Origin: Anaerolineae bacterium
Lineage (GTDB): Bacteria > Chloroflexota > Anaerolineae > CG2-30-64-16
DNA length: 32,267 bases
Direction: 5' to 3'
Assembly (NCBI GenBank): GCA_026645775.1
Contig: JAPKMS010000169.1
Span: 1 to 32,267 of the forward strand
Shown here: positions 22,535 through 22,765 of the stretch, in pieces
Layout: each line of letters begins with the position of its first letter
Numbering within the stretch: the first letter of the stretch is position 1
Notes under the pieces: model-generated
What the model was told of the DNA's origin: nothing
Databases searched by the model: none
Seen by the model: only the letters and a program-made list of their open reading frames with translations
Position numbers and translations under genes: made by a program

Positions 22535-22765
22535 TTACCAAAAAGTCAGGCCTTTCAGCGGTGACTCGATCGCCGCGTCGAAATCTCGCGCCAACTTATC
22601 GAGGGTTTCCGGTTGAAGAGACCGGATGCGCGCGACCTGGTTGGGATCCAGTCGATAGCGCAGCATCCGTGCCGCCTTATCCGGGTCCTCGAGCAGAAGC
22701 GCACGGAACTCAGGGCTAAAAAGGGCCCGGCCGATCAATCGATCCATCTGTGCTTGGGATGCCAT
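22535..22765 (-). CDS. Candidate modified-peptide precursor (ComX-like / NHLP-leader-like), C-terminal ...PLKGLTFW
   Basis: 76 aa MASQAQMDRLIGRALFSPEFRALLLEDPDKAARMLRYRLDPNQVARIRSLQPETLDKLARDFDAAIESPLKGLTFW; AAAGGAG 8 nt upstream of ATG; 14 bp after the upstream gene. Confidence 0.7.
   Translation of the reverse strand: MASQAQMDRLIGRALFSPEFRALLLEDPDKAARMLRYRLDPNQVARIRSLQPETLDKLARDFDAAIESPLKGLTFW

Follow-up and report, generated by a model that had tools for sequence, protein, structure and literature searches.

What does a 76-aa open reading frame encode when it stands between the gene of an isoprenoid-synthase-like protein and that of a membrane protein, and what might these neighbors do with its product? 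The frame lies at positions 22535-22765 on the minus strand of a 32,267-nucleotide contig of an Anaerolineae bacterium (JAPKMS010000169.1), referred to as a whole as the window. The genes described here form a three-gene cassette, comprising a peptide that ends in tryptophan, an enzyme (PT) that probably attaches an isoprenoid tail to it, and a 7-TM protein (M) that may sense the product. An earlier reading of the same DNA (the sequence-only reading) was sound on the precursor and the enzyme but left the third conserved gene, M (21436-22527), unmentioned.

Precursor gene, leader family and variable tail

The product of the frame is MASQAQMDRLIGRALFSPEFRALLLEDPDKAARMLRYRLDPNQVARIRSLQPETLDKLARDFDAAIESPLKGLTFW, whose C-terminal end is ESPLKGLTFW. 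A Shine-Dalgarno sequence read from the DNA, AAGGAGAA (22772-22779, minus strand; contains AAGGAG), is located 6 nt ahead of the ATG, inside the 14-nt gap that follows the upstream stop codon. Comparison with the nearest relative yielded a dN of 0.29 and a dS of 1.38 (dN/dS about 0.2), indicating that purifying selection acts on the frame. The 76-aa frame is a genuine gene, and the NHLP-clan leader it encodes is genuine too. The Os1348 NHLP-clan model NF038399, which was positive in 0 of 14 control genomes, scores 54.9 bits over residues 6-66 (cutoff 40, E = 6.9e-15), PF14407 (Frankia_peptide, Franean1_4349 type) reaches a marginal 48.1 bits against a cutoff of 48 (E = 1.4e-12), and NHase_alpha gave a sub-threshold match in the Pfam search (E = 0.006). 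By these profile scores the leader belongs to the Os1348/Franean1_4349 families of the NHLP clan, as the sequence-only reading had suggested from a residue pattern; the pattern captures more than chance, judging by NF038399, but it is a consensus and not the literal sequence. At E values up to 10, neither the classical NHLP leader model TIGR03793 (NCBIfam search) nor the ComX family (Pfam search) matched the precursor. ComX homology, and with it the shared ancestry with ComX precursors that had been proposed, is therefore not supported; the resemblance that survives is one of function, namely a presumed Trp acceptor and a trans-IDS-like transferase.

The leader comprises residues 1-61 (22583-22765, minus strand; the boundary is approximate), followed by the presumed core, residues 62-76 (22538-22582, minus strand). 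Among 17 cassette peptides, mean pairwise identity is 38% over residues 1-61 versus 13% over residues 62-75. The C-termini are not uniformly conserved, and some 10-15 hypervariable residues remain after the leader, in line with the short core that had been anticipated. The single invariant tail residue is Trp (17/17), represented in the window by Trp76 (codon 22538-22540, minus strand), the presumed prenyl acceptor. This Trp is the last residue in eight of the peptides, including that of the window, which ends in FW, and is followed by 1-16 residues in the other nine. Because alignment programs can pull Trp residues together, counts of distance from the end are safer than the 17/17 column. Trp occurs within the last 15 residues of 16 of the 17 cassette peptides versus 13 of 28 Os1348 peptides of the class that lie outside the cassette (p = 0.001), and within the last three residues of 11/17 versus 5/28 (p = 0.003), a one-residue artefact row from the decayed G030 locus being excluded from these counts. 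Os1348 peptides with short Trp tails (SKMW, RLWRG, AWRG, AWRPG and MWPGIG) were also observed at loci L030-L032, L044 and L053, where no PT relative was found within the stretches read.

Fold, active site and published counterparts of the presumed prenyltransferase

Directly upstream of the precursor gene lies PT (22780-23796, minus strand), a 338-aa trans-isoprenyl-diphosphate-synthase-like protein and presumed Trp prenyltransferase. Searches of PT against Pfam, NCBIfam and PHROGs returned nothing significant, and neither single-sequence nor profile searches found a significant match among solved structures, so that fold comparison was used instead. The AF2 model, generated from an alignment with 12 relatives, is confident and all-helical (pLDDT 89.5), with Ord1 as its best PDB match (9v4g; E = 1.1e-4, TM 0.63/0.67); nine chains scored E<=1e-3, of which four, including rank 1, are Ord1 and the remainder polyprenyl synthases. 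An isoprenoid-synthase fold is therewith predicted for PT, as had been claimed for the adjacent enzyme. The first Asp-rich motif (D102-D106; 23479-23493, minus strand) contains D102, invariant in 13 sequences, and the second (D221-D229 with V218; 23110-23145, minus strand) contains the invariant residues D221, D225 and D229. The likewise invariant V218 (23143-23145) is located three residues ahead of the second motif, at the position where PalQ and Ord1 carry Gln. An N-terminal motif, WxLEWxLPxWLG, is peculiar to the subfamily of the window's PT.

The two-gene core of an NHLP-clan precursor and a Trp prenyltransferase has a published precedent in PalX/PalQ of Paenibacillus alvei, in which an NHLP precursor is paired with an isoprenoid-synthase-fold prenyltransferase of the C-terminal Trp (PMC10853753). 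The proposal that an NHLP-like leader serves an isoprenoid-synthase enzyme was therefore right in kind but not new. PalQ (K4ZRG6) prenylates the terminal Trp of PalX, which it requires, and the leader enhances the reaction (PMC10853753). The window shares with PalX/PalQ/PalP an NHLP-clan leader, a short variable core ending in Trp, a neighboring trans-IDS-like prenyltransferase that has both Asp-rich motifs, and an adjacent membrane protein. The two differ in the leader, which is of the Os1348 type in the window and of the NHLP type in PalX (TIGR03793 in the Paenibacillus relative examined); in the enzyme site, Val218 standing against the Gln of PalQ (Q197 before D200, as published), a sequence comparison made through a Paenibacillus cellulosilyticus relative of 28% identity as a stand-in; in the third gene, M against a histidine kinase; and in the residues that follow Trp in 9/17 window-type peptides, against the terminal-Trp demand of PalQ. 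A further trait of the PalX/PalQ type is prenyl transfer to Trp indole C3; PT is a presumed Trp prenyltransferase. Ord1, a free-tryptophan farnesyltransferase (PMC13290415), is the best fold match, yet it shares 17-19% identity with PT and carries a Gln, Q216, whose position three residues before D219 is implied by the mutants Q216A and D219A, where the window has Val. ComQXPA of Bacillus likewise encodes a Trp peptide and an isoprenoid-synthase-fold transferase together with a membrane sensor-like protein; unlike it, the window has no ComX match, its cassette includes neither a histidine kinase nor a response regulator, and window-type peptides carry their Trp at or near the C-terminus. The Os1348 leader, the invariant Val at the Gln site and the 7-TM partner appear to be new. 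Leader family, fold and conserved Asp motifs support prenyl-Trp transfer as the chemistry of PT, which we infer strongly, and by analogy with the characterized enzymes the prenylation of the precursor's Trp, taken as a step on its own, is highly probable.

Distribution of the cassette and related loci

Searches covering up to 396 Anaerolineae genomes identified 15 loci in 14 genomes from 8 families, with PT beside an Os1348 peptide in all 15; ten cassette loci, or closely similar ones, belong to named records of Caldilineales and other Anaerolineae. The gene order is PT, then one to three Os1348 peptides, then a convergent M of ~360 aa, which is present at every cassette whose contig reaches far enough (12 intact Anaerolineae loci); M is cut off by the contig end in G206 and found on another contig in G128. 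No protease and no transporter is among the cassette genes. Most Os1348/Franean1_4349 peptides of these genomes are located away from any PT relative. Outside Anaerolineae, the PT-like proteins in a phylum-wide sample were all distant (E no better than 5e-17), and viral and phage collections contained no PT relatives. Peptide (WP_167728003.1), M and PT are also present on a 13-kb plasmid (NZ_CP050446.1) of Tolypothrix sp. PCC 7910. There, the PT frame runs across the start of the record and has nothing ahead of the WLG motif, and part of the N-terminus may therefore be missing. In a tree of M, the cassette-linked members, including that of Tolypothrix, cluster at 99/100, apart from G197, a long branch that rests on a doubtful ORF call. 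PT, M and leader have co-diverged: their distances are correlated with one another (rho of 0.56-0.63, p<0.001 by permutation), in part through shared organismal history. One cassette, L108 (G030:C1), is decaying, with stops in PT, a split M and a peptide C-terminus that still reads GLGFW.

Two related arrangements carry other membrane partners. In P. cellulosilyticus (L146:5939-7418), a relative matched by the PT profile at E = 2.4e-27 is accompanied by a 641-aa histidine kinase and five tandem TIGR03793-like (NHLP-like) peptides, two of which were scored by NCBIfam; these end in WV, WI, WL, WF and WT, with a penultimate Trp in each and a different last residue every time. This locus is the PalX/PalQ/PalP arrangement described previously (PMC10853753), and its PT relative retains the Gln three residues ahead of the second Asp motif. 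A second Anaerolineae cassette (L109, G268:C147; L139, G210:C251) combines a PT relative with Os1348 peptides ending in LGWN or LANW and, directly downstream of the peptide, a membrane SpoIIE-type phosphatase. Cyclase-like and methyltransferase genes are also present in this cassette, and the L139 relative has kept the Gln. Three distinct sensor-like membrane proteins, a histidine kinase, a SpoIIE-type phosphatase and M, thus adjoin PT and a Trp-tailed peptide, which makes the third element look like a sensor, and it is for this reason that we interpret M as the receptor for a signal in lipopeptide form.

We propose that the 76-aa frame encodes a precursor peptide of ribosomal origin, the Os1348-type leader of which would present the short variable tail to PT. 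By analogy, PT would transfer an isoprenyl group, its chain length likewise presumptive, from a prenyl diphosphate to the C-terminal Trp76; a protease that is not among the cassette genes would then cut off the leader, and the lipidated peptide would be secreted, most likely as a signal. M would most likely be its membrane receptor, in place of the sensor histidine kinase of PalX/PalQ and ComQXPA. Synteny at the 15 loci and in Tolypothrix, the enrichment of Trp in the tail, the correlated distances, the Paenibacillus TIGR03793/histidine-kinase locus and the L109/L139 cassette support this proposal, while the invariant Val in place of the indole-contacting Gln and the residues after Trp in 9/17 peptides count against it; as a whole, with M as the receptor, we hold it to be evenly balanced. 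If correct, it would extend prenyl-Trp peptide systems from Paenibacillus and Bacillus to Anaerolineae and, by way of a plasmid, to a cyanobacterium in culture, and would add a further leader family to them. A PT active site without the residue thought to recognize Trp makes acceptor choice in this enzyme group testable, and Tolypothrix sp. PCC 7910 is a cultured strain open to mass spectrometry of the product. To our knowledge, a 7-TM candidate receptor like M occurs in no peptide-pheromone system.

Membrane protein M and competing explanations

M (21436-22527, plus strand) is a 363-aa protein convergent with the precursor gene, with 7 nt between the stop codons. Its AF2 model (pLDDT 81) comprises seven TM helices, TM6 and TM7 being joined by a long helical hairpin on the cytoplasmic side, and mean K+R is 18.9 in the predicted inner segments versus 4.0 in the outer; model and charge together predict an N-in, C-out topology. 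Nothing significant was found for M in Pfam, NCBIfam or PHROGs, nothing reliable in BFVD and no relatives in viral contigs.

That M is the receptor of the product we infer only moderately. M has no recognized output domain, and immunity, export or processing would also fit the synteny, both of which weigh against a receptor. The main rival accordingly keeps the same prenyl-Trp RiPP but has M confer immunity on the producer, or assist in export or processing, and sees the product as a membrane-active lipopeptide, not a signal. Seven TM helices lacking a recognized output domain agree with such a role, the variability of the tails and the presence of one to three precursors at each locus also suit bacteriocin-like loci, and the Tolypothrix cassette resides on a small plasmid; the histidine kinase or membrane SpoIIE phosphatase of related cassettes, however, fits sensing, and in Pfam M resembles no known immunity protein or transporter. 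We regard immunity or export as a serious possibility, though the less probable one.

A more specific version of the receptor reading arises from the fold. When the M model was compared with the PDB, ranks 1-6 and 8 were insect gustatory or odorant receptors (E 0.18-0.63, TM about 0.3). The layout of the 7TMIC superfamily, which includes these channels, has been described as seven TM helices, an intracellular N-terminus and a TM6-TM7 hairpin, with extreme sequence divergence and no members found in prokaryotes (PMC9998090); later evidence for transfer to prokaryotes is cited in a review (PMC11526382). M is predicted to share the helix number, the N-in/C-out topology and the cytoplasmic hairpin, and its helix order fits the anchor-domain/split-TM7 packing, but the fold match is weak (E at least 0.18, TM about 0.3) and no insect 7tm or related Pfam family matched at E up to 10. 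The likeness, one of predicted topology and weakly of fold, is a lead and not a membership. It is doubtful that M, as a bacterial protein, belongs with the insect chemoreceptor-type 7-TM channels or resembles them in structure and at the same time acts as receptor for a pheromone, an isoprenylated peptide from the neighboring genes; were it so, the cassette would be a compact, horizontally mobile signal-synthase-receptor unit of a new type. The protein next to a distant M homologue (L131:5343-7775) contains effector-associated domain 7 (EAD7), which marks conflict systems, and unlinked M homologues had no Os1348 peptide within the stretches read.

Two further explanations concern the chemistry of PT, which could instead be a small-molecule terpene or prenyl-diphosphate synthase, with the Os1348 protein as an unmodified small regulatory or carrier protein. 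Its fold is indeed common to polyprenyl synthases, and Val218 replaces the Trp-recognition Gln; yet Trp alone is retained while the rest of the tail is hypervariable, PT always adjoins such peptides, a Trp prenyltransferase comes nearest in fold among solved structures and a PalQ-like homologue matches strongly, which together make this explanation improbable. Slightly less probable still is modification of the peptide at another residue, or by isoprenoid chemistry other than Trp prenylation. In its favor, the enzyme might have switched acceptor along with losing the conserved Gln, and WxLEWxLPxWLG sets the subfamily apart; against it, Trp is the sole conserved tail residue across members and all characterized trans-IDS-like peptide prenyltransferases act on Trp (PMC13290415).

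PT-like domains also occur in proteins of about 630-740 aa at loci L110-L113 and L150-L157. At L110-L113 these adjoin Trp-less Os1348 peptides ending in FGENQAAV or similar, and a cNMP-binding protein is also present nearby at L111 and L113; the large proteins of both groups of loci are possibly ChrPC-like two-domain enzymes.
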